DNA of 25,789 nt from positions 1 to 25,789 of the IMG/VR virus record IMGVR_UViG_3300045117_000253, one strand, 5' to 3'. Shown here one piece after another: positions 6,243-24,595 of the stretch. The notes under the pieces were generated by a model that worked only from the letters and a program-made list of their open reading frames with translations, did not search any database and was not told the DNA's origin. The number at the start of each line of letters is the position of its first letter. Within the stretch, counting starts at the first letter, position 1. The position numbers were made by a program, and so were the translations under genes. Source of the stretch: a virus.

Positions 6243-6438
6243 TTCTATTAAAATGTCATATAGGGACGTGCGGCTGCCCGCCCACCCCCCACTTCCACTA
6301 TTCCTATCTTCTTCTATTATCTTCTTTAATAGTTTCTATTAATGTATTAATTTAATAGATTTTGCAACTTCCTTCTGTCGTTCTGTCTGTGTCTTTTGAA
6401 CTTGTCGCGCAGCATCCCTATATGACAATTTAATAGAA
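6243..6438. repeat. 24-bp inverted repeat flanking AT-rich block
   Basis: The arms at 6243-6266 (plus strand) and 6415-6438 (minus strand) match at 23 of 24 positions; both begin TTCTATTAAA and end GTCATATAGGGA. The spacer is 148 bp. It contains further TTCTATTA copies at 6312 and 6334, a hyphenated palindrome at 6326-6342 (TTAATAG-TTT-CTATTAA), and TTTAATAG near 6352. Such clusters mark replication origins, operator arrays or paired promoters. The block divides the late from the accessory gene set. No ORF with coding features is found in 6204-6606. Confidence 0.75.
6326..6342. promoter_or_regulatory. Hyphenated palindrome TTAATAG-TTT-CTATTAA
   Basis: A perfect 7-3-7 inverted repeat at the centre of the 24-bp inverted-repeat region. 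It shares the CTATTAA core with both long arms, so one protein could recognise all copies. A good candidate operator or origin-binding site. Confidence 0.5.
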
Positions 6439-6507
6439 TGTGTTAAAATCTTTGCGTTCGTAGTATGCTCAGTCCAGCTTTCATGGGCATGGAAGCGGCC
6501 GAGCGGT

Positions 6508-6573
6508 GCCGGGCAGGGATGGACTCCTGCATGAATGCGCCGCGCCTATTGAATGATGAGCGGAGCCCCCGGC
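6508..6573. other. GC-rich potentially structured segment
   Basis: GCCGGG (6508-6513) can pair with CCCGGC (6568-6573), enclosing a GCAGG...CCTGC hairpin (6513-6517 with 6526-6530). The segment is sharply more GC-rich than the adjacent AT-rich block. It is 66 nt long like a small RNA, but has no T-loop or anticodon loop typical of tRNA. It may be a terminator-like or non-coding RNA element after the last late gene. A 29-codon frame (6443-6532, minus) has no SD. Confidence 0.25.
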
Positions 6574-6606
6574 CGGCAGAGCTGTATTGCACCGCAGCGG
6601 AAGCAC

Positions 6607-6840
6607 CTACACGGAATCTGGCTGCGCCTTGGCGCGGAGCCTCTTTGCGGTCTCGACGATTTCCTCACCATAGCGCTCACATTCCTCCCTTAATTCTCTT
6701 TTCAGCCTGCGGTCGTTGCTTTCCATCAGCCTGTCCCAGAACGCCTTATTCGGCTTGTTGGCGCGGTTCTTGCGCCTGTTCATGTATTCTCCGAGCTGGA
6801 TGTAGCGTTCTATGACCTCCCCCCGCCTAAGCTGCCTCAT
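6607..6840 (-). CDS. Hypothetical highly charged helical protein, 77 aa
   Basis: Almost entirely charged and helical: MRQLRRGEVIERYIQLGEYM, then NRRKNRANKPNKAFWDRLME, then the helix RLKRELREECERYGEEIVET and a basic end. The ATG at 6840 overlaps the stop of the gp10-like gene (ATGA). It is the last gene of the late operon. No family is recognised. A dimeric coiled coil or DNA/RNA binder is possible. Confidence 0.65.
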   Translation of the reverse strand: MRQLRRGEVIERYIQLGEYMNRRKNRANKPNKAFWDRLMESNDRRLKRELREECERYGEEIVETAKRLRAKAQPDSV

Positions 6841-7310
6841 TTGAGGACCGCCCGCCGCTTGTAGGTGGCGACCACAGTATAGACGGAATCGCGCAGGAAC
6901 GGGCGCGCGGTGGTGCCCTCCTGTTGGATTTTGACCTTCACCGCCCAGGCTATTTTCATGGCGTCCTTTCTGGCTATTCCGAGCTTGCGGCTCACCCACC
7001 TGGCGAGTATTTCGGCTGGTGGACCTGGGGTTCCTGGCGGAAGCCCGTATTCTATGTATGATGCGTAGGGCGCGCTGAACGCCACCATGGCGCCGTCCTT
7101 GCGCCGCTCCACGCTTCCGCTTCCGAGGAGCTCGCCGGTGTCGGTGATTATGCTCGAGTATGAGCCGTCCGTCCCGTGCCCGATCCACTCCCGCTCGGCT
7201 ATGTTCGACTGCGCCTCGGAGTAGATTCTGTCGGCTATTTCCCAGCATGCCTCAATCAGCGCCTTTTCGAGCTGGGCTTTGCCCTTTGCCGTAATTTGCA
7301 GCCGAAGCAC
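6837..7310 (-). CDS. HK97 gp10-like tail-completion/neck protein, 157 aa
   Basis: Matches the HK97-gp10 family pattern: an N-terminal helix (KAQLEKALIEACWEIADRIY), a strand region with GELLGSGSVERR, the characteristic APYASYIEYGLPPGTPGPP segment in mid-protein, and TARPFLRDSV near the C-terminus. Length is typical. In tailed phages this protein sits at the head-tail interface or tail terminator and is encoded with the connector genes. Here it lies ~11 kb downstream, after the lysis-like genes. This is an unusual position, suggesting rearrangement or a second-site copy. Confidence 0.7.
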   Translation of the reverse strand: MLRLQITAKGKAQLEKALIEACWEIADRIYSEAQSNIAEREWIGHGTDGSYSSIITDTGELLGSGSVERRKDGAMVAFSAPYASYIEYGLPPGTPGPPAEILARWVSRKLGIARKDAMKIAWAVKVKIQQEGTTARPFLRDSVYTVVATYKRRAVLK

Positions 7311-7313
7311 GGT

Positions 7314-7535
7314 CTACCCTCCGAGTATGTGCATCGTGAGAAACCCTGCCACCCCGGCTGCAAACCCAAGCGCGGAGGTGGCTATCCAAAAATTCAGGGA
7401 TGCCTTTCCCGCGAGCCTTGCCACGTACTCGTTGGTCTGCTCGTGGTTTGCCGCCACCGTCTCCTCAAGCTTCGCAAGCTTCTCGTAGATGTCGCGGTTG
7501 GTTATTCGCATGAATGTTTTGTTGCCGTTTGGCAT
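7314..7535 (-). CDS. Small membrane protein, XhlA/holin-accessory-like, 73 aa
   Basis: The N-terminal amphipathic helix (MRITNRDIYEKLAKLEETVA, with NHEQTNEYVARL after it) is followed by one C-terminal transmembrane span (NFWIATSALGFAAGVAGFLT). This is the coiled-coil-then-TM layout of XhlA-type haemolysin/holin-associated proteins. It is next to another small membrane protein and the transglutaminase-like peptidase, which suggests a lysis or membrane-breach module. Assignment is by topology only. Confidence 0.6.
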   Translation of the reverse strand: MPNGNKTFMRITNRDIYEKLAKLEETVAANHEQTNEYVARLAGKASLNFWIATSALGFAAGVAGFLTMHILGG

Positions 7536-7547
7536 GATTGCCCTCCT

Positions 7548-7781
7548 TTAGCGTTTTTTCTTGCCTGCTCCGACTATTGGCCACGGCTCGAGCGGGTTCA
7601 GCAGCTTGAACTTCTCGTTCAGGTACGCCAGCGCCATGGTTGCGAATGCGTAGTATTCCGGCGGAACCTGCGCTATGTCCGCGGTCGCGTAGGCGAGCAC
7701 GATGCCCCCCGCGCACAGGAATGCGTACTTGCACAGCAGTCTTTGGTCGGTGTGCCCGTCGAAGTATTCTTTGATTCCCAT
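7548..7781 (-). CDS. Holin-like membrane protein, 77 aa
   Basis: A short cytosolic head (MGIKEYFDGHTDQRLL), a hydrophobic span (CKYAFLCAGGIVLAYATADI), a second weaker hydrophobic helix (EYYAFATMALAYLNEKF), and a basic tail GAGKKKR. Small size, one or two spans and a cationic C-terminus are holin-like. Start ATG 7781 was chosen over ATG 7787 because GAGGAGGTTG is at better spacing. It lies between a 110-aa orphan and the XhlA-like gene. Confidence 0.55.
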   Translation of the reverse strand: MGIKEYFDGHTDQRLLCKYAFLCAGGIVLAYATADIAQVPPEYYAFATMALAYLNEKFKLLNPLEPWPIVGAGKKKR

Positions 7782-7795
7782 TTTCATCAACCTCC

Positions 7796-8128
7796 TCACC
7801 ACAGCCCGAGGCGTATTTTCGTCACGTCGATGAGCTGTTTGAGTATGAACAGAAACCGCGTGCCTGCGGAGCCTGTCGAGTTCGGGCAGAGGACGCGCCA
7901 GTATTGCGTGCCCTGCCAGTTCTTCAGGTAGTAGGTGGTGGCGTTCGCCTGCTCGCTCCGCCTGCGCACGCACCTGGAAATGTCGTCGCCGTCCGCGCCT
8001 ATTACCTTGAGCATGTCGTCCGCGCTTAAATATTCGGCGTCCTTGTCGCTTCCCGGCACGAACAGCGTCGGCGCCACGAAGTAAAAGCCCCCGGTCACAA
8101 GCGTCATCTCGAACTCGTTCGAATTCAT
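7796..8128 (-). CDS. Hypothetical protein, 110 aa
   Basis: ATG 8128 overlaps the peptidase stop (ATGA). The sequence starts MNSNEFEMTLVTGGFYFVAP and later has DDISRCVRRRSEQANATTYY and QGTQYWRVLCPNSTGSAGTR. It is beta-rich with two Cys and ends IRLGLW. Translational coupling to the transglutaminase-like gene suggests a partner or inhibitor of that enzyme. No family is recognised and the role is inference. Confidence 0.6.
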   Translation of the reverse strand: MNSNEFEMTLVTGGFYFVAPTLFVPGSDKDAEYLSADDMLKVIGADGDDISRCVRRRSEQANATTYYLKNWQGTQYWRVLCPNSTGSAGTRFLFILKQLIDVTKIRLGLW

Positions 8129-9162
8129 GGTCTCCCTCCGTTTATGCGTATGAACTTGAAGAACGGCTGCCTCTGCAGCCTCCTCGCCTTTGTGCGCTGG
8201 GCATCCGTCCCGAACCAGTTGAACGTCTTGGTGTCGGTCGAGGAGAACCAGGGCTGCGCTATGTTGAGACTTTCCGAGCCGTCCCCGGTCAGCGGCAGGC
8301 TCTTGGCGTCCTTCCCGGCGGAGTAGTTCGTCGTGCTGTTCCGGTGGTGCCACTTCAGGTCTGATGCGAGGTAGAACGTGGTCGCGTGCCCCTCGTTGCT
8401 GAACGTCATGCCTGCGGTGACGCGCAGCAGCTCGTAGGGTATGCCAGCAATCCTCGCCCCGACGTGGTTGAGGATGGCTTTGTCCTCGCAGTCGCCCGTC
8501 TTCATGATGCGCGTTTCGGATGCAAATTGCCAAAACTCGTTCTCTCCCCAGCTCCGGTCGTCGAATTGGTACGGGATGGAGTCGCCGAGGGCGTGCGTCA
8601 CCCTCATGAAGGCGATGTCGCATGCCTCGTGGAAGCCGATGTCCGGCTTTTCCGCAAGCACGTCCTGCACCCTTCCCTTGGCGGCCTTCACCATGCTGAC
8701 TATTTCCCAGTCGTTCTGCCCTTCGAGTAGCCACACCTTTGCGTCCAGCCTGTAGCGGTTCCGGTTGGTGCCCCAGTAGCGGCCGCCATAGGTGACGTAT
8801 GCCTCCGGGTACTTGTTCATGTAGGCGGTTGCCAGGGCCTGGGTGCCTGCTGGCAGGTAGCCGAAGGTCAGCGACTGCTTCGGGTCAATCGGCTGCTGTG
8901 AGTTGAGCTGCGCCCTGAGCCGGCTTATTTCAGAGGTCAGGTCGCTGACCTCCTTGCTCAGGGAGGCTATTCTTGCGAGGTTCTCCTGCTTGCTTTGGGC
9001 GGCCCCCGCGACCAGCTCGTTCATCTCGCGCTGCAGGTTCTGCTTGTCTGCCTCGAGAACGGCTATTTGCTGCCCGAGTATGGCGTTGGTCTGCTCGTTC
9101 GCGTCGCGCGTCCTGATGAGCCTTCCGCAGAAGACCCGTTCGAGAAGGGAGTCGGATTGCAT
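8125..9162 (-). CDS. Coiled-coil + transglutaminase-like cysteine peptidase, 345 aa
   Basis: Residues ~20-88 form a long coiled coil (AILGQQIAVLEADKQNLQRE and on to SEISRLRAQLNSQQ). Residues ~160-280 carry the transglutaminase-like core: RIMKTGDCEDKAILNHVGAR with candidate nucleophile C225, GIPYELLRVTAGMTF, then GHATTFYL with H259. The position where the third catalytic Asp usually lies (KWHHRNST) holds N275; D268 is nearby. In archaeal viruses pseudomurein endoisopeptidases belong to this superfamily, so a tail- or lysis-associated envelope-degrading role is likely. Start ATG 9162 follows AAGGTAATACC. It opens a module that also holds two small membrane proteins. Confidence 0.75.
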   Translation of the reverse strand: MQSDSLLERVFCGRLIRTRDANEQTNAILGQQIAVLEADKQNLQREMNELVAGAAQSKQENLARIASLSKEVSDLTSEISRLRAQLNSQQPIDPKQSLTFGYLPAGTQALATAYMNKYPEAYVTYGGRYWGTNRNRYRLDAKVWLLEGQNDWEIVSMVKAAKGRVQDVLAEKPDIGFHEACDIAFMRVTHALGDSIPYQFDDRSWGENEFWQFASETRIMKTGDCEDKAILNHVGARIAGIPYELLRVTAGMTFSNEGHATTFYLASDLKWHHRNSTTNYSAGKDAKSLPLTGDGSESLNIAQPWFSSTDTKTFNWFGTDAQRTKARRLQRQPFFKFIRINGGRP

Positions 9163-15238: not shown

Positions 15239-16844
15239 AGTTCCCCCCTCTCTTGAGCTCGCTTGCCATCTCGCGCTTGAGCAGCTCCAGCATGCGGCGC
15301 ATGTCGGAGTCGCTCTCGAAGCGCGGGTTGTTTATGGTGACGTTGACGGTTCCCCCGCCGAGGCTTCCCGGGTTTTTCGTGGCGAATATGTAGTCCGCTG
15401 GGTCGGTTTTGATGATTTGCCCGCTCGGAGTGATGATGGCATCTTGGATGGGAATCAGTCGGTCGCGCAATTCCTTGGGAAGGGAATTAAAAATCGCCAC
15501 TATGCCGGATGTGGCTTTTCTCAGCATTTCGAAAAGGTTGGAGAGAGACGAGCCGATGCTCTCCCAACCAGAAACGAGCTTGCTTTTGAAGCTGTCTGGG
15601 TCGTCGCTAAAAAGAATGTTGTATGCATCGCCTGCAAAAAGTTTAAAGCCGGTTTCGAGCATTCCACCTTTGGCAAAAAAGCCTATTCCGGTTCCAAACA
15701 AGGCAACATCCACAAGGTCACTGGCTTTTTTAAAATTCGTTTCAAACTCGCCTCCTTTTCCAAAAACAGCGCCATCCCCAAAGAGAAAATCAAGCATCCC
15801 TGGTTTTGAGGTGAGTGTTGTGTTAAACCCAAACGCTTCTCCTTCCCCCCAAGCGTTTGCTTGTGTCGTTCTGAATCCAAGCGCTTCTCCCTGTCCGGGC
15901 CATTTTTCCCCTTCTTTTGGTGACTCCGACTCCCATGGCCATCTAAACGTTGTGCCTTCCCATGGCCATTTAAAGCCTTTGTCCCATGGCCACTTGAAGC
16001 CTTTGTCCCATGGCCAAGTGATTGTAAGCCCATCCCAGGGCCACTTGAAGCCACCTCCCTCTTCCCAGGGCCACTTGAAGCCACCTCCCTCTTCTGTGCT
16101 TTCCCAGGGCCACTTGAAGCCTTCGAGCAGCTTGCCGCCGAGATAGCCAATCACGCCTCCTTTGGAAAGGTCGAACATTCCATAGCCCAATCCGCCAGCG
16201 GGCTCTTCTTCGGATGGAGCCGCAGCCCATTTGTCGATTTCTTTCACGAAGGTGTCCGTGAAGTTATCCATAATGGCATTAAAGTTGTCAAGTCCCTCGA
16301 ACATCACTTTCATGAAGTCGGTTGAGAGGTCGCTGATGTCCATCTTCGAGGTGTCCACCCCGAACAGGCGCATGAGGAAAAGCACGAAGCTCGTCAGGAT
16401 TTTGAAAATTGAGCCGAGCAGCTTCGTCCAGAATTTGATGGCTATTATGACGAGCACGAGGACTGGCTTCAGGAGCGTCTGCAGCACCATCGCCAGGGGA
16501 AGCACGAGCAGTTGTATGATTAGGCTTATTTGCCCGAGTATGGGCTCGAGGATGTCCTTGACCGCGCCGATTACGACGCTTACGACGGCGAGCGTGGCAA
16601 CCGCCTTGGTGACGAGCCCTGCGATAGCATCCATGGCTCCGCCGCCTGTCTCTGTTTTTATGTTGAATTTCACGTCTTCTATGCCTTCGAAGGCGTCCTC
16701 GAACTTGTCGGCTATCTTGTCGAGCCGGTCAAGCCCGGCAAGCGCGGTTTCCAGGGTGTCTGCTGACCTTTGGAATGACTTCTCGAGCTTCTTGCCTGCT
16801 TCCTCGAGTCCTGTGAGTTTCACGAGTACGTCCATGCCTGCCAT
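15222..16844 (-). CDS. Tail tape measure protein with WPW repeats, 540 aa
   Basis: The N-terminus is helical with heptad character (residues 1-60). A long hydrophobic block (about 76-162) follows, as in phage tape measures. Seven WPW motifs occur between residues 245 and 304 (245, 258, 268, 277, 285, 293, 302), mostly as GFKWPW(E/D), with a degenerate KWPG at 314. The C-terminus has a phage tape-measure ending (IITPSGQIIKTDPADYIFAT, then TVNVTINNPRFESDSDMRRM). It follows the tail assembly chaperone pair directly. Length would fit a tail of very roughly 80 nm using the usual ~1.5 angstrom per residue. It acts inside the tail tube and may insert in the host membrane. Confidence 0.9.
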   Translation of the reverse strand: MAGMDVLVKLTGLEEAGKKLEKSFQRSADTLETALAGLDRLDKIADKFEDAFEGIEDVKFNIKTETGGGAMDAIAGLVTKAVATLAVVSVVIGAVKDILEPILGQISLIIQLLVLPLAMVLQTLLKPVLVLVIIAIKFWTKLLGSIFKILTSFVLFLMRLFGVDTSKMDISDLSTDFMKVMFEGLDNFNAIMDNFTDTFVKEIDKWAAAPSEEEPAGGLGYGMFDLSKGGVIGYLGGKLLEGFKWPWESTEEGGGFKWPWEEGGGFKWPWDGLTITWPWDKGFKWPWDKGFKWPWEGTTFRWPWESESPKEGEKWPGQGEALGFRTTQANAWGEGEAFGFNTTLTSKPGMLDFLFGDGAVFGKGGEFETNFKKASDLVDVALFGTGIGFFAKGGMLETGFKLFAGDAYNILFSDDPDSFKSKLVSGWESIGSSLSNLFEMLRKATSGIVAIFNSLPKELRDRLIPIQDAIITPSGQIIKTDPADYIFATKNPGSLGGGTVNVTINNPRFESDSDMRRMLELLKREMASELKRGGNYATGY

Positions 16845-16845
16845 G

Positions 16846-17010
16846 TCACAACCCCATGAGCTTCCCAGCCGCCCTCGCCCCAGCGAGCTTGGCGTTCTTG
16901 TTCAGGCTGTCGAGCAGCCCGAGGACGGTGCCGACCTCCATCTCATCCACATCGCGCGGCAAAAAGCCGAAAAAAAACGCCATTGGGAAGTAGACGTCTT
17001 CGGCACCCAT
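16846..17010 (-). CDS. Tail assembly chaperone extension (gpT-like), 54 aa
   Basis: A 54-codon frame beginning MGAEDVYFPMAFFFGFLPRD and ending AGARAAGKLMGL, in the -1 frame relative to the upstream chaperone gene and ending two bases before the tape measure. The size, position and frame are those of the T part of lambda-type gpG/gpGT chaperones. If read through by -1 slippage, the fusion is 163 aa with one Ile codon (ATA) between the parts. It also has its own ATG in TAATG, with only a weak AGGA upstream, so re-initiation is possible. Confidence 0.7.
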   Translation of the reverse strand: MGAEDVYFPMAFFFGFLPRDVDEMEVGTVLGLLDSLNKNAKLAGARAAGKLMGL

Positions 17011-17336
17011 TATTTTTTTTCCTTTTTTTCGCCCACCCCGTTCAGCTCCATGAGCGCGTTGCTCAGTTCAAGCGCGAGGTCGAGCCCCTCGAGCGTGTCG
17101 AGCGCGGTGTTGTTGTCCTTGATGTCGAACGGCGCGGCGACTATGCTCTTCGGGAGCACCGCCAGCATCATAGCCCCTATTTTTATGTCCGTCCCGCCCC
17201 CGGCCCTCACGGTCATGAACTCGTCGAGCGAATACGCCCATTCGCGGAACTTCAGCTTCCGCAGGACGAGCTCGCCCTCCTTCCCCTCGTGCACTATCTT
17301 CACGAAGGCTTTCCCCTCGCGTATCTCGTATGTCAT
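17010..17336 (-). CDS. Tail assembly chaperone (gpG-like), 108 aa
   Basis: Begins MTYEIREGKAFVKIVHEGKE and includes KLKFREWAYSLDEFMTVRAG and DTLEGLDLALELSNALMELN, ending GEKKEKK. A small strand-then-helix protein immediately upstream of the tape measure is the hallmark of the first tail assembly chaperone in siphoviruses. It coats the tape measure during tail tube polymerisation. Start ATG 17336 has GGAGGTGTAGGC. Its last codons form an A-rich run directly before TAA, a candidate frameshift site. Confidence 0.75.
   Translation of the reverse strand: MTYEIREGKAFVKIVHEGKEGELVLRKLKFREWAYSLDEFMTVRAGGGTDIKIGAMMLAVLPKSIVAAPFDIKDNNTALDTLEGLDLALELSNALMELNGVGEKKEKK
17013..17019 (-). promoter_or_regulatory. 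Candidate programmed -1 frameshift site (A_AAA_AAA)
   Basis: On the coding strand the chaperone gene ends GAA AAA AAA TAA. The heptamer A_AAA_AAA sits directly before the stop. A slip of -1 gives ATA ATG GGT..., fusing to the 54-aa downstream frame. A second A7 run lies 3 bases upstream. This parallels the lambda G/GT slippery site. Transcriptional slippage on the A8 run is an alternative. Confidence 0.6.
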
Positions 17337-17353
17337 GCCTACACCTCCAAACT

Positions 17354-17433
17354 AACTTACTACAGGTTAGTGTAACTTACTACAGGTTAGTGTAACTTAC
17401 TACATGTTAGTGTAACTTACTACAGGTTAGTGG
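17354..17433. repeat. Four tandem 20-bp direct repeats (iteron-like)
   Basis: AACTTACTACAGGTTAGTGT occurs four times back to back. Copy three has AT for AG and copy four ends GG. Each unit contains a TAAC...GTTA inverted pair (CTAAC...GTTAG in the first), so each could also form a small hairpin. They lie in the only sizeable gap of the structural operon (17337-17491), between the tail tube gene and the tail chaperone gene. Next to them 17432-17440 (GGGGCTGCG) can pair with 17464-17477 (CGCAG, bulge, CCCC), giving a possible terminator-like stem. Confidence 0.85.
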
Positions 17434-17491: not shown

Positions 17492-18478
17492 TTAAACGGG
17501 TTGTGTGCTGACGTTATCTATGGCGAGCAGCTTCGTGAGCTGCCTTACGCTGAACCCGACCTCGGCAGCCATCATTTCATCCGCGCTCGCGCTTGTCCCG
17601 AAGGTGTTTATGAGATTCCCAGCCAGGTTGATGTCCACCTGCCTGTTGGCGGTGGTTGCCGCCCCGTTGTTCAGCAGCAGGCGCATGGTTGCGGTTTCCG
17701 TCATGAGCGCGTCCGGGCTCACCGAGGTGCTGCTGCCGTATGCGTAGAGCAGGAGCGTCTTGATGTCGAACGGCAGGCTCAGCTTGCAGTCGTAGTCGCT
17801 TTGCTTGGTCAGGACGAACGCACCAGTCCTGCTGCCCAGCCCGCGCTTTATCTCCGGGTTCCTGCTTATTGTCAGGTCGCAGCTCTGCACCTTGGTCAGC
17901 GTGGTCGAGAGCGGAAACTCCACGCTCGCGTAGGCGAAGGTGTAAGCGGCGTCTGTCGGGTTCACGCGCGTTGTCAGCGCCGACTCAGACCATGCGGCAT
18001 CCGCGAAGCTCATCTCGGCAGTGCAGACCACGGGCTCGTCAACCGCCAGCTTCGTGGAGAAGCTGTCGAGCACGCACCCCTTCAGGGTGTGGTGCGATGC
18101 CGTGCTGAAGTCGTATGAGAGGTCAATCGTCATGGACTTCATCGCCGCGAGAGCCGCTGGCGAGCCCGCGCTGTTCACGAACGTGTGGGTGTACGGCCCT
18201 GCGCCAGTGGTCGTGGCTATGTTTCCAGTTATTGCCGAGAACAGCCACGGGTCGCCCAGGATGAACTCGAAGCCAACCTTGCCGGTGAAAGCCATGCCGG
18301 TCTGGGACTGGCTCTCGTAGTTCCCTATGCCGTAGTACTTCTTGCAGTTGTTGTTGAGCTCGAACGACGTGACCTTGAGGTCGTGCCCCAGGTTCTTGTA
18401 GTTCGACTCGGTTGTCGTCTTGTATGTCGAGCCCTCGTACTTGTAGAGGGCGAAGACATTCGCTCCTGTCTTAGTCAT
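17492..18478 (-). CDS. Major tail tube protein, 328 aa
   Basis: Starts MTKTGANVFALYKYEGSTYK, contains KVTSFELNNNCKKYYGIGNY, YESQSQTGMAFTGKVGFEFI, MTIDLSYDFSTASHHTLKGC and SCDLTISRNPEIKRGLGSRT. These are repeated beta-sandwich strands typical of long siphovirus tail tube proteins. It lies just upstream of the tail chaperones and downstream of the neck genes, the standard position. ATG 18478 has GGAGG at 9 bases; ATG 18484 is too close to it. Expected to be the most abundant tail protein. Confidence 0.75.
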   Translation of the reverse strand: MTKTGANVFALYKYEGSTYKTTTESNYKNLGHDLKVTSFELNNNCKKYYGIGNYESQSQTGMAFTGKVGFEFILGDPWLFSAITGNIATTTGAGPYTHTFVNSAGSPAALAAMKSMTIDLSYDFSTASHHTLKGCVLDSFSTKLAVDEPVVCTAEMSFADAAWSESALTTRVNPTDAAYTFAYASVEFPLSTTLTKVQSCDLTISRNPEIKRGLGSRTGAFVLTKQSDYDCKLSLPFDIKTLLLYAYGSSTSVSPDALMTETATMRLLLNNGAATTANRQVDINLAGNLINTFGTSASADEMMAAEVGFSVRQLTKLLAIDNVSTQPV

Positions 18479-18695
18479 TTCCATCTACCTCCTTTTTTGC
18501 CCCCAATTTCCCGAGTATTTCGGGCTTGAGCATGAAGAAATCCATGAGGCTGCCCGTGCCCTCGAGCCTTGCCGCGAAGGCGCCGTCCGTCTTGGCAACC
18601 TCATCCACGATTTTTTTCTTCCATCCGTAGAAGTCGGCTGCGCTGTTTATTCCAACAAGCGCGCCGAAGTCCGTGTCCTGCGTTTTTTTCGCCAT
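18471..18695 (-). CDS. Small protein between neck and tail tube, 74 aa
   Basis: MAKKTQDTDFGALVGINSAA then DFYGWKKKIVDEVAKTDGAF and SLMDFFMLKPEILGKLGAKK, mostly helical and soluble. ATG 18695 has GGGGGATTGG. A longer frame to 19085 lies inside the neighbour and was rejected. Genes here often encode neck accessory or tail-terminator proteins, but no family is recognised. Confidence 0.65.
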   Translation of the reverse strand: MAKKTQDTDFGALVGINSAADFYGWKKKIVDEVAKTDGAFAARLEGTGSLMDFFMLKPEILGKLGAKKEVDGND

Positions 18696-19162: not shown

Positions 19163-20083
19163 TCAATTCCTCTTCATGTAGCGGATTTCCGCCCTGTTCT
19201 TCATTATGCGGTCTGCCTCCTTGCGCATCAGCTCGACCTTGCTCCCGAGCCCGATGTTGTCCGTGCCTGTTGGGAGGATGACGCTCCGGTCGTCCGACAT
19301 TATGGCATCCATTGCCGTCATGAGGGTGCATGCGCGCTCTATGTCCTTCGGGACGTATGTGTCACCGTAGCGGTATTTTATCCTAACCGCCCGCTTGTAG
19401 GTCGATGGTATGTCGTATATGTAGAGCACGCCCCTGTCGTAGTCCATCCACCAGTCGCTTGCCCTTCCCTCGGTTTTGCTCGCTATGTAGTCGGTGTACG
19501 AATCTCCGTCCCAGACCTCGAGGGCATCGCCCGAGCCTGCGGCGAGCGTCCTGATTTTTCTGTGGTTGAGGAATATTTTCGCCCCTTCGGTGGTGTCGTA
19601 GATTTCCGGGGCGTCGTAGTATTCGTAGGTTGCGGCGGTCGCCTCGTTTGTCTCCGTCCCGGAATAGCGCACGCGCCACGCGTGGTTGGTCTCGCGGTCG
19701 ATGGCATCCTCGTTCTGGCTTATGAGCTGCAGGATTTGAAAGACCGTCGGCTTGGTGTTCCCGTCGAAGCCGACGAAGCTCTGGCTGTTGAAAACCTGGA
19801 GGTATTGAGCCACGTCGTCTGGCTGGCAGTAGGTGACGGTCGTGCGGGTGGCCGGAAAGGCGTCCGACTGCTCGCTCTCCACGAGGCTGCCGTTGTTGTA
19901 GTAGCTGTATTTGTACCAGTCGCTGCTGATGCCGCTCTCGTCGTAGTATGTGGTGTCGGCTATGGCCTGCTGCACTATTTCGGAATATGCCCCGGCTTCG
20001 GTCGAGCTGCGGTAGAGCTTGGTGTGCGTCCACGAGCTTTCGGTTATGGGTTTGCTCCAATATGTCCAGTTGCCCAATTCCAT
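19163..20083 (-). CDS. Head-tail adaptor with N-terminal Fn3-like domain, 306 aa
   Basis: Residues ~1-75 (MELGNWTYWSKPITESSWTH, LYRSSTEAGAYSEIVQQAIA, YESGISSDWYKYSYYNNGS region) form an Fn3-like beta sandwich. RTTVTYCQPDDVAQYLQVFN then begins the adaptor proper, followed by FQILQLISQNEDAIDRETNH and a beta insertion. The C-terminal helices (ERACTLMTAMDAIMSDD, LGSKVELMRKEADRIMKNRA) are as in gp6-type connectors. ATG 20083 overlaps the upstream stop as TGATG; upstream in-frame codons fall inside the preceding gene. It seals the portal and recruits the tail. Confidence 0.7.
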   Translation of the reverse strand: MELGNWTYWSKPITESSWTHTKLYRSSTEAGAYSEIVQQAIADTTYYDESGISSDWYKYSYYNNGSLVESEQSDAFPATRTTVTYCQPDDVAQYLQVFNSQSFVGFDGNTKPTVFQILQLISQNEDAIDRETNHAWRVRYSGTETNEATAATYEYYDAPEIYDTTEGAKIFLNHRKIRTLAAGSGDALEVWDGDSYTDYIASKTEGRASDWWMDYDRGVLYIYDIPSTYKRAVRIKYRYGDTYVPKDIERACTLMTAMDAIMSDDRSVILPTGTDNIGLGSKVELMRKEADRIMKNRAEIRYMKRN

Positions 20084-20313
20084 CACCCTATCAATATTGC
20101 CTTCCCTTCCTTGATTGGCTCCGTGCGCGCCCAGGCTTCCTTTGGAGGCTCGGTTCTCGCGCACGCCTTCCTTGCGGGTTCTGCCCTCGCGGATGCCTTC
20201 TTTTTCGGCTCGGCGCGGGCTTCCGCGTATTTCACGGCTTCCGCGTTCGCCTTTGCCTTCTGCGGCTTCCCGCGAAGCTCAATAACTACAATCGGTTCAT
20301 CTTCAAACGGCAT
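20083..20313 (-). CDS. Lys/Ala/Glu/Pro decapeptide-repeat protein, 76 aa
   Basis: A short head (MPFEDEPIVVIELRGKPQKA) is followed by a degenerate unit (21-30) and four exact-length decapeptides at residues 31-70. Each fits xAR(A/T)EPxKx(A/G): EARAEPKKKA, SARAEPARKA, CARTEPPKEA and WARTEPIKEG. The protein is very basic with alternating acid. It may bind nucleic acid in the capsid or act as a flexible linker; neither is established. The ATG is preceded by GAGTGAGAAA. Confidence 0.65.
   Translation of the reverse strand: MPFEDEPIVVIELRGKPQKAKANAEAVKYAEARAEPKKKASARAEPARKACARTEPPKEAWARTEPIKEGKAILIG
20104..20253 (-). repeat. 30-bp coding repeats (decapeptides)
   Basis: Codons for five consecutive 10-residue units (four clear at 20104-20223, one degenerate at 20224-20253) in the small basic protein. 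The DNA copies have diverged at synonymous and first positions while keeping the protein pattern, suggesting an older expansion under selection. Confidence 0.6.
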
Positions 20314-21368: not shown

Positions 21369-22505
21369 TCAGTATATGTTCCCAATGCGCACCGTCACAA
21401 TCTTGATGAGGATGTTGGTCGGCTTCGACATGTTGTAGACGTATGCTACCTTCGCTGGCGTCAGGCTTTCGTTGAAGTACATGATGCTGTCGTAGCCGAC
21501 TGGGGCGTATTTGTTCGTTGCGGTGGAATAGCTGTAGTTGTAGCCGTCGCCGAAGTAGTTCGCCGCCCCGCTTGTCCAGTTGGCGAACTCCTGGTTCGTG
21601 TGGGCTCGGGTGTAGTTCAAGACCAGGGAGCCATTGACGAATATGCTCAGGTTCGTGGTGTTCCAAGCGACCGCGTAGTGCGTCCAGCCGGTCGTGTTGA
21701 ACAGCCCGGCTGCGTTGGTGTATGTCTGGTTCCAGCTCGAGTTGTTCGTGGCGAGAACTACCATGAGCGTCGTGTTGTTGTATGCGATTATGGAGGTGTT
21801 GTTGACGTGGCTTGTGGGCGTGCCTCCGAGTGCCGCGCCCTTGTGCCACAGGTACCACGAAACGTTGGTCGGGATTGACGAGTTCGTGTAGAGCCAGAAG
21901 GCGATGGTGAAGTTCTTGTTGCTCGTGATGTTCATGGTTGAGCTGTCGTTCACGCGCATGAAGCTCGTGTTCGAGCCGTTGAGGAACGTGGCGTTGTAGA
22001 TTTTCCCAGTCATCCAATTGGTGACGTAGGTGTTGTTGATGACAGCTGGCAGTTCGAGGGTGTCGGCCCCTATGGAGTTGGTGGTGCTGTTCCCGGTGCC
22101 TGCGTCAAGCTTCCACCAGTGCAGGACGTTCGCTGGCGTGAGGGAATAGCCTCCGGTCGAGTTATCGTTGCAGGTGATGTTCAGGTTGCCGTAGTTCGTG
22201 TAGTTTGCGGTGCTCCGGTTGAGGAACGTCACTCCTGCCGCCGTGGTATTGTGCGTCCATAGCGTGTTGTTTTCATTGTAGATTGAGCAGGTGAAGTCAG
22301 CCCCGGCTCGGTTCTCTATGCGCAGGTATTTGATTACCCCGTAGACGTTCGAGAACACGACCGTGGTGTTGTTGTATTGCCCGGTGAATATGTTCGCCTG
22401 GCGCATGTCGTAGCCTGCCCCGAAAAAGTCGGCGTTTGTGGTGACGTCGGCGCAGGCAATTGCGCCAAGCATTATGAGCGCGAAAAGCGCCGAGTTCCAC
22501 TTCAT
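21369..22505 (-). CDS. Secreted LamG-like lectin, sequon-rich, 378 aa
   Basis: Signal peptide MKWNSALFALIMLGAIACAD, with a Cys near the cleavage region (a possible but imperfect lipobox). Domain 1 (~20-125) is beta-rich. From about residue 127 (NVLHWWKLDAGTGNSTTNSI) runs a LamG/ConA-like fold with NFTIAFWLYTNSSIPTNVSW, GWTHYAVAWNTTNLSIFVNG and ESLTPAKVAYVYNM, the usual LamG core. I count 34 N-x-S/T sequons in 378 residues. In archaea these would be AglB-type glycosylation sites if secreted. It lies between the small capsid decoration-like genes and the anchored protein gene. Likely glycan or host-surface binding. Confidence 0.8.
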   Translation of the reverse strand: MKWNSALFALIMLGAIACADVTTNADFFGAGYDMRQANIFTGQYNNTTVVFSNVYGVIKYLRIENRAGADFTCSIYNENNTLWTHNTTAAGVTFLNRSTANYTNYGNLNITCNDNSTGGYSLTPANVLHWWKLDAGTGNSTTNSIGADTLELPAVINNTYVTNWMTGKIYNATFLNGSNTSFMRVNDSSTMNITSNKNFTIAFWLYTNSSIPTNVSWYLWHKGAALGGTPTSHVNNTSIIAYNNTTLMVVLATNNSSWNQTYTNAAGLFNTTGWTHYAVAWNTTNLSIFVNGSLVLNYTRAHTNQEFANWTSGAANYFGDGYNYSYSTATNKYAPVGYDSIMYFNESLTPAKVAYVYNMSKPTNILIKIVTVRIGNIY

Positions 22506-23413: not shown

Positions 23414-24595
23414 TTATGCTATTACAGCCAAATCTCTGGCTTTTCCTTGAACATTGAACCTGCTGCAGTGCAGCTCCATTGAGCTGTACAGGAGGTACTC
23501 GTTGCCGAGCTTTGCGTGCGCCGGGTAGTTCACCAGGTTCGTCTGGGCGATTATTGGCGCCTGCAGCACCTTTATGCCGAGCACCGGCTCCTTGTAGACC
23601 GGGTCGTACTGCCCTGTGAGCAGGTAGAGGTTGCTTATGTCGCCGTTCGCCGTGACAGCGCCTGCGGGTGCGATGTACACTGGGCGCCCGTAGAGCGTCG
23701 CCATTTCCTTGCCGACGTTGATGCCCTGCCCCTTGCCGTCCGCAGTGGGGTTGGTCAGCCCGGTCGCTTCCGGCTGGACGTACCTCACCTGGCTGTCGTA
23801 GAGCAGCATGAGCTGCGCCCATGTGTCGCTGCCTGTGTACCAGAATTGGTCGGTCGGGACTGCGCCCGCGCGCACGGTCTGGTCAACGAGGCCCGCCACT
23901 ATTTTCTTGGAGAGCGCCCTTGCCGTGCTGCTGTTGTGGTCGACGTATGCGTCGCACCAAGAAGCCGCAGCGTCCCTGTCCTGGCTGTAGATGTCCGCGT
24001 CGTTTGTGTGCACGTCTCCAGTGCAGTTGGCCACCTCAGCATAGGAGGACACGACCCTGTCTATGCTCTCGACGCTCGTGCTTGCGACGGTCGTCACGTC
24101 CTCGTTGAGCTTGGCGTTGATGAGGTACATGAAGTTCTGCTTCGCGTACTCAAGCTCGTTCGCCACGTCCATGGCAATGTCGTCGTTCTTGGTCGCAAGA
24201 AGCCTCATCCTCTCGGAGATTTCTATTGCGAGCGCCTGCTCCTTGGTGCCGACGGTGACCTCAAGGGTGTCCGATGCCACGCTGTCTGGCACCGCCCCGT
24301 TTTCCGAGACCGCGACGGTGGCTTCCGAGCCTCCGGCGCTTGTCACATAGCGGGATTTCCTCACCCTGAAGCCGGAGCGCGAATACGCGAACTTCGGGAG
24401 CGCCCCGAACAGCACGCTGCTTGTCTGCAGCTGCTGGAAGAGCGCCGCGCCGAACACCGCGTTGTAGCGGCCTCCGTCGGGCGAGCTCGTCGTGTGCGGC
24501 AGGTCAGTCTTCGCCATGTCGGCTGACGTTATGCCCTGGTATTGCTTTTCCCACAGCTCGTTGTAGAGCCGAAGGTTTTCACCACTCATTCCCAT
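23414..24595 (-). CDS. Major capsid protein (HK97-like), 393 aa
   Basis: Pattern of HK97-fold capsids: N-arm (MSGENLRLYNELWEKQYQGI), GAALFQQLQTSSVLFGALPK, a glycine/serine E-loop region (SAGGSEATVAVSENGAVPDS), and the spine helix (AIEISERMRLLATKNDDIAM, LEYAKQNFMYLINAKLNED). The P/A-domain strands are KEMATLYGRPVYIAPAGAVT and YLLYSSMELHCSRFNVQ near the end. Length is normal. It follows a scaffold-like gene and precedes small decoration-like genes. Start ATG 24595 has GGAGGTAAAAAC. Confidence 0.85.
   Translation of the reverse strand: MGMSGENLRLYNELWEKQYQGITSADMAKTDLPHTTSSPDGGRYNAVFGAALFQQLQTSSVLFGALPKFAYSRSGFRVRKSRYVTSAGGSEATVAVSENGAVPDSVASDTLEVTVGTKEQALAIEISERMRLLATKNDDIAMDVANELEYAKQNFMYLINAKLNEDVTTVASTSVESIDRVVSSYAEVANCTGDVHTNDADIYSQDRDAAASWCDAYVDHNSSTARALSKKIVAGLVDQTVRAGAVPTDQFWYTGSDTWAQLMLLYDSQVRYVQPEATGLTNPTADGKGQGINVGKEMATLYGRPVYIAPAGAVTANGDISNLYLLTGQYDPVYKEPVLGIKVLQAPIIAQTNLVNYPAHAKLGNEYLLYSSMELHCSRFNVQGKARDLAVIA

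Follow-up and report, generated by a model that had tools for sequence, protein, structure and literature searches.

Layout of the tail genes and of the two frames ahead of the tape measure

The window, which is the whole 25,789-base IMG/VR record analysed here, carries all of its named head and tail genes on the minus strand. Two frames, referred to here as G and T, lie between the genes for the tail tube and the tape measure, as a pair of the G/GT type demands. In the direction of transcription, the genes and frames are:

23414..24595, minus strand: major capsid protein (phrog_24667, E 1.1e-16; tblastn matches to archaeal virus major capsid proteins only)
19163..20164, minus strand: neck-region protein, related to HCTV-16 gp121 (phrog_17057, E 3.4e-42; tblastn 34%, E 3e-30)
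17492..18484, minus strand: tail tube protein, the upstream neighbour of G, 330 aa (PF18906 Phage_tube_2, E 1.6e-8)
17010..17336, minus strand: G, a gpG-like predicted tail assembly chaperone and the 0-frame product, 108 aa; an ORF with the tail tube gene on one side and the tape measure gene on the other
16846..17013, minus strand: T-like extension in the -1 frame, beginning IMGAEDVYFPMAFFFGF, 55 aa, followed by TGA at 16848-16846
17010-16846, minus strand: T ORF as read from its ATG, -1 relative to G, 54 aa
15222..16844, minus strand: tape measure protein, 540 aa; matches the tail length tape measure family PHROG 305 (E 1.9e-5)

The 3' end of G reads GGC GAA AAA AAG GAA AAA AAA TAA, with the stop at 17012-17010 overlapping the ATG of T as TAATG. 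The first-pass annotation of this DNA had described a gpG-like gene ending GAA AAA AAA TAA with a 54-aa frame in -1, and both coordinates and codons were verified on the minus strand. Between its flanking stops the T frame has 73 open codons and hence spans the whole A-rich end of G. Its stop at 16846 lies 1 nt ahead of the tape measure ATG at 16844, confirming that the downstream frame ends beside the tape measure gene. Assuming the usual archaeal anti-Shine-Dalgarno (SD) sequence, G has a strong predicted SD (GGAGGTG, -13.2 kcal/mol) and the T ATG a weak one (-4.0 kcal/mol), again as first annotated. Scanning the window for Rfam families and for tRNAs gave no matches.

Between the tube gene and G, a 20-bp unit, TAACTTACTACAGGTTAGTG, is repeated four times in tandem at 17353-17432 (96% matches); no such repeats were seen in the equivalent gap of L005, a related virus described below. 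Within the tape measure gene, at 15958-16094, short in-frame tandem repeats encode units of the (F)KWPW(E/D) type.

Fold of G and affiliation of the virus

No family recognises G or T in Pfam and PHROG searches, and a direct sequence search of annotated phages with the G-T fusion found no match. An AlphaFold2 model of G was considered at the level of fold; it was built on an alignment of three sequences and has a pLDDT of 66. Structural alignment placed YqbN first (3klu; Z 7.5, rmsd 3.1, 89 aligned residues), followed by the HK97 tail assembly chaperone (2ob9; Z 6.4, rmsd 3.4, 85 aligned) and 3fgx (Z 6.3, rmsd 4.1, 86 aligned), and then by 5ir0 (Z 5.0) and others below 3. Scores of Z <8 can be generic and would be weak if taken alone, but the match is more convincing because 2ob9 is titled a phage tail assembly chaperone and YqbN, of the XkdN/YqbN family, is another. 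G also hits several viral library entries named as tail assembly chaperones, in each case at E >0.001. Together these comparisons give moderate support for a tail assembly chaperone fold in G, in line with the gpG-like label of the first-pass annotation.

The affiliation of the virus was examined against 50,697 annotated phage records. There the capsid protein has matches in Haloarcula viruses and in a Methanofastidiosa virus and nowhere else; matches to the neck-region protein (34%, E 3e-30) are confined to haloarchaeal viruses, and those to the tail tube, by tblastn, to the tubes of HCTV-1 and HCTV-16. HCTV-16 has the same gene order, running from capsid through neck protein, tube and chaperone to tape measure. 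These matches support the assignment, from sequence comparison, to an uncultured archaeal tailed virus (Caudoviricetes) that is probably a relative of the Druskaviridae, and the archaeal origin proposed in the first-pass annotation is upheld by the capsid, tube and neck-region proteins alike, which match archaeal tailed viruses only.

Two tube-based scans of bacterial and archaeal genomes found no provirus; the sole match, on an alphaproteobacterial MAG contig (L013), covers 39 residues and was too short to use. The Methanofastidiosa virus vir519 (BK063666) was considered as a relative and set aside, since it shares the capsid protein but has no recognisably related tube or tape measure. Its presumed G gene (6328-6612) overlaps a tape-measure-like frame (6587-8419) in +1, and no -1 T frame was seen at that junction.

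Slippery heptamers and their conservation

Two slippery heptamers lie in the G frame near its end:

17022..17028, minus strand: first heptamer, A_AAA_AAG; the two close relatives presumably shift at this heptamer too
17013..17019, minus strand: second heptamer, A_AAA_AAA; abuts the G stop TAA and falls at the junction of the fusion alignment, in a column free of gaps

The -1 frame is open through both and continues for 58 codons from the first or 55 from the second. Slippage at either would give a fusion of 163 aa (108 + 55 from the second site), the two products being distinguished by a single residue, with KKGKK or KKEKK ahead of IMGAEDV; past the junction, the tryptic peptide of the fusion starting at Ile would be IMGAEDVYFPMAFFFGFLPR. 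The first-pass annotation had predicted the 163-aa product from A_AAA_AAA, which the codon count confirms, and missed the other in-frame heptamer, A_AAA_AAG at 17028-17022. Slippery heptamers as such are no rarity in the window, and these genes contain them at other places too. The exact -1 phase, also put forward in the first-pass annotation, is present, but with TAATG it is weak evidence alone because coupled genes share that phase, so that relatives are needed.

The close family consists of three distinct viruses, namely the window, L005 (tube 67% identical, fusion 40%) and L010 (tube 42%, fusion 50%). In L005 G ends CCA AAA AAG TGA and in L010 GGA AAA AAG TAG, with T in -1 in each, such that both keep A_AAA_AAG, a stop directly following it and the -1 phase, although the surrounding sequence differs. 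The three fusions (163, 163 and 162 aa) align without gaps at the junction, where KK is invariant. Pairwise changes in the T frame peak at the third codon position (23/19/31, 25/20/34 and 26/26/36), as expected for a coding frame. It is this conservation, more than the phase or the presence of a heptamer, that carries weight. The first-pass annotation had named as evidence against its proposal any relatives in which the two frames were separated or differed in phase, or in which the A-run was interrupted but the downstream frame survived; L005 and L010 favour the proposal.

These observations are best explained by a programmed -1 frameshift of the lambda G/GT type in the tail-assembly chaperone gene of this virus, a prediction to which we assign a probability of about 0.92. 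The comparisons show how the frames are arranged and that this is conserved, along with the gene order, a predicted chaperone-like fold and an affiliation with archaeal viruses. Most ribosomes would make the 108-aa G and halt at TAA, while a minority would slip by -1 at the paired Lys codons of A_AAA_AAA, or at those of the upstream A_AAA_AAG, and translate 55 codons more to give a 163-aa GT. By analogy with lambda, the tape measure protein would be coated by G, while recruitment of tail-tube subunits would fall to the T extension, and because of such roles the ratio of G to GT would matter in tail assembly. That slippage takes place, how often, at which heptamer and with what functions for G and GT is our inference.

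One candidate element that might promote slippage lies downstream of the heptamers:

16927..17007, minus strand: possible stimulatory hairpin, starting 5 nt past the second heptamer, with an 8-bp outer stem GGUGCCGA/UCGGCACC

Folded as a single sequence, this hairpin has an MFE of -40.3 and a z of -2.6, and the sequence downstream of the heptamer gives z of -1.3 in L005 and -1.7 in L010. When a conserved downstream stem was sought across the window, L005 and L010, however, the consensus fold was unsupported (z -0.24), and a stimulatory RNA structure after the heptamer is therefore regarded as no more than possible. Upstream, L010 has a strong SD-like GGAGGT a few bases ahead of its heptamer, which could act as a stimulator of slippage; weaker candidates occur in the window and L005.

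A variant of this mechanism, which we hold to be rather unlikely, is that the site represents a distinct, stop-adjacent kind of archaeal -1 shift, in which a lysine heptamer abuts the stop of G (and is doubled here), slow termination and not a fixed RNA structure drives slippage, and the junction may also allow reinitiation, so that free T is made alongside G and GT. Both the window, with ATG, and L005, with GTG, do have a start codon at the junction, and some reinitiation is thus possible there.

Pure translational coupling, with G terminating at TAA, a restart at the overlapping ATG and T made as a separate 54-aa protein without any frameshift, would explain some of the same features, since the window (TAATG) and L005 (GTGA) both have a classic coupling overlap, which falls in the -1 phase regardless. 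However, the T frame of L010 has no start at the junction and carries a TGA separated from the shift point by just three codons; its first ATG, GTG or TTG is at codon 18 past that point, beyond the conserved AFFFGY motif, and its T sequence is still kept. Because of this upstream TGA and the lack of an early start, the T segment of L010 would by normal rules be made only via entry from G. In many wider relatives, too, the first start sits well within the T frame. The weak SD of the T ATG compared with that of G is a further difficulty, and coupling leaves the retention of the heptamer unexplained. On this evidence coupling is improbable, and the programmed frameshift proposed in the first-pass annotation stands as by far the best explanation, with relatives keeping phase and heptamer and L010 having no usable start.

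Stuttering of a viral or host RNA polymerase on the A-run, adding or dropping an A so that part of the mRNA carries the fused frame, is more improbable still. Runs of 7 and 8 A in the window, and of 9-10 in several wider relatives, would suit such transcriptional slippage, but L005, L010 and L046 have just 6, and two wider relatives have the heptamers G_GGT_TTT and C_CCT_TTA without a long homopolymer; the feature kept is an in-register slippery heptamer and not a long run. Homopolymers are error-prone on some sequencing platforms, but an indel splitting one continuous ORF is a very remote prospect, since a second IMG/VR contig of the same virus (L003; 99.5% identical over 10.5 kb) is identical to the window over the whole G/T region, and L005 and L010 are split alike within different surrounding sequence and at shorter runs.

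Wider occurrence and known frameshift systems

Beyond the close family, viral contigs were scanned with an alignment of the tape measure protein, which gave 49 loci, a choice by homology that samples viruses unevenly. In 22 non-redundant contigs (window, L005 and L010 included) a heptamer lies near the end of the ORF preceding the tape measure gene and is followed by a -1 extension of 42-75 codons that stops where the tape measure gene starts or close to that point; the stop comes directly after the heptamer in 9 of the 22. The heptamer is A_AAA_AAN in 20 of these contigs and of a non-A type in the other two, L015 (G_GGT_TTT) and L021 (C_CCT_TTA), whose -1 extensions are 64-65 codons long. These two suggest that what is kept is slipperiness, and not lysine or poly-A. 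Among the 382 ORFs of the collected loci, a set that includes spurious ORFs, 25 carry an in-frame AAAAAAN within their final 15 codons, and in 20 of these cases the ORF is the one preceding the tape measure gene. L050 and L056 have an open -1 frame but no A-type heptamer, and several other screened loci have no recognisable G/T pair; the layout is thus common among the screened loci, not universal. The tube of one wider contig (L051) has its best matches in bacterial phages, and so the wider set is not all archaeal. The screen yields about 20 further G/T junctions, mostly in unassigned viral contigs.

The heptamer A_AAA_AAG of L005, L010 and the first site in the window is also that of Escherichia coli dnaX, a cellular gene that has an SD-like element defined upstream of its shift site and a hairpin downstream of it. 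Besides being cellular, dnaX differs in these two elements, for which the window family offers only candidates.

The lambda tail assembly chaperones G and GT are produced by a -1 frameshift (PMC5009743). The window resembles lambda in having two overlapping frames immediately before the tape measure gene, a -1 heptamer near the end of G, and a predicted short G and extended GT; the fold predicted for its G is that of the HK97 chaperone 2ob9. It differs in its tandem heptamers, A_AAA_AAG and A_AAA_AAA, the second abutting the stop, and in that G and T match no family by sequence.

The remark in the first-pass annotation that lambda-type G/GT frameshifting is little documented in archaeal viruses was partly right. 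Such frameshifting has been reported since 2013 for HVTV-1 and HCTV-1/2/5, with A_AAA_AAC as the heptamer of HCTV-2 (PMC5009743, PMC8211752). Among records of haloarchaeal viruses (MZ334524, KC117377), a putative programmed -1 frameshift is annotated at the same place in the chaperone of HCTV-16, and the HVTV-1 record has a joined chaperone CDS there. In HVTV-1 and HCTV-1/5/16 (Druskaviridae and relatives) the major capsid and neck proteins are related to those of the window and follow the same order, with an annotated or predicted -1 G/GT arrangement at the same place. HCTV-16 differs in its heptamer, G_GGA_AAC, which lies well ahead of the stop and so gives a longer G/T overlap, and its chaperone sequences cannot be confidently aligned with those of the window (profile comparison with G was not significant). 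In Hardycor1, a site G_GGA_AAT was predicted in 2021 for HrrHc1_110/115 (PMC7911831); this is likewise an X_XXY_YYZ site in an archaeal-virus chaperone pair before the tape measure gene, with another heptamer and in a different virus. The mechanism has therefore already been reported for archaeal viruses, and what is new is a predicted member in an uncultured archaeal lineage. Predicted G/GT frameshifting now reaches a lineage of uncultured archaeal tailed viruses beyond HVTV-1, the HCTV viruses and Hardycor1, at an A-rich, stop-adjacent site whose position and tandem heptamers are worth the note of specialists.

Two other proteins of the window have domain matches. The product of 8125-9162 matches a transglutaminase-like cysteine protease (PF06035, E 8e-6, slightly below the curated cut-off) and is perhaps an entry or lysis enzyme. 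That of 21369-22505 has a Laminin_G_3/concanavalin-like domain (PF13385, E 2.3e-9) and is encoded between the genes for the capsid and neck proteins, where a surface-binding domain is unexpected.
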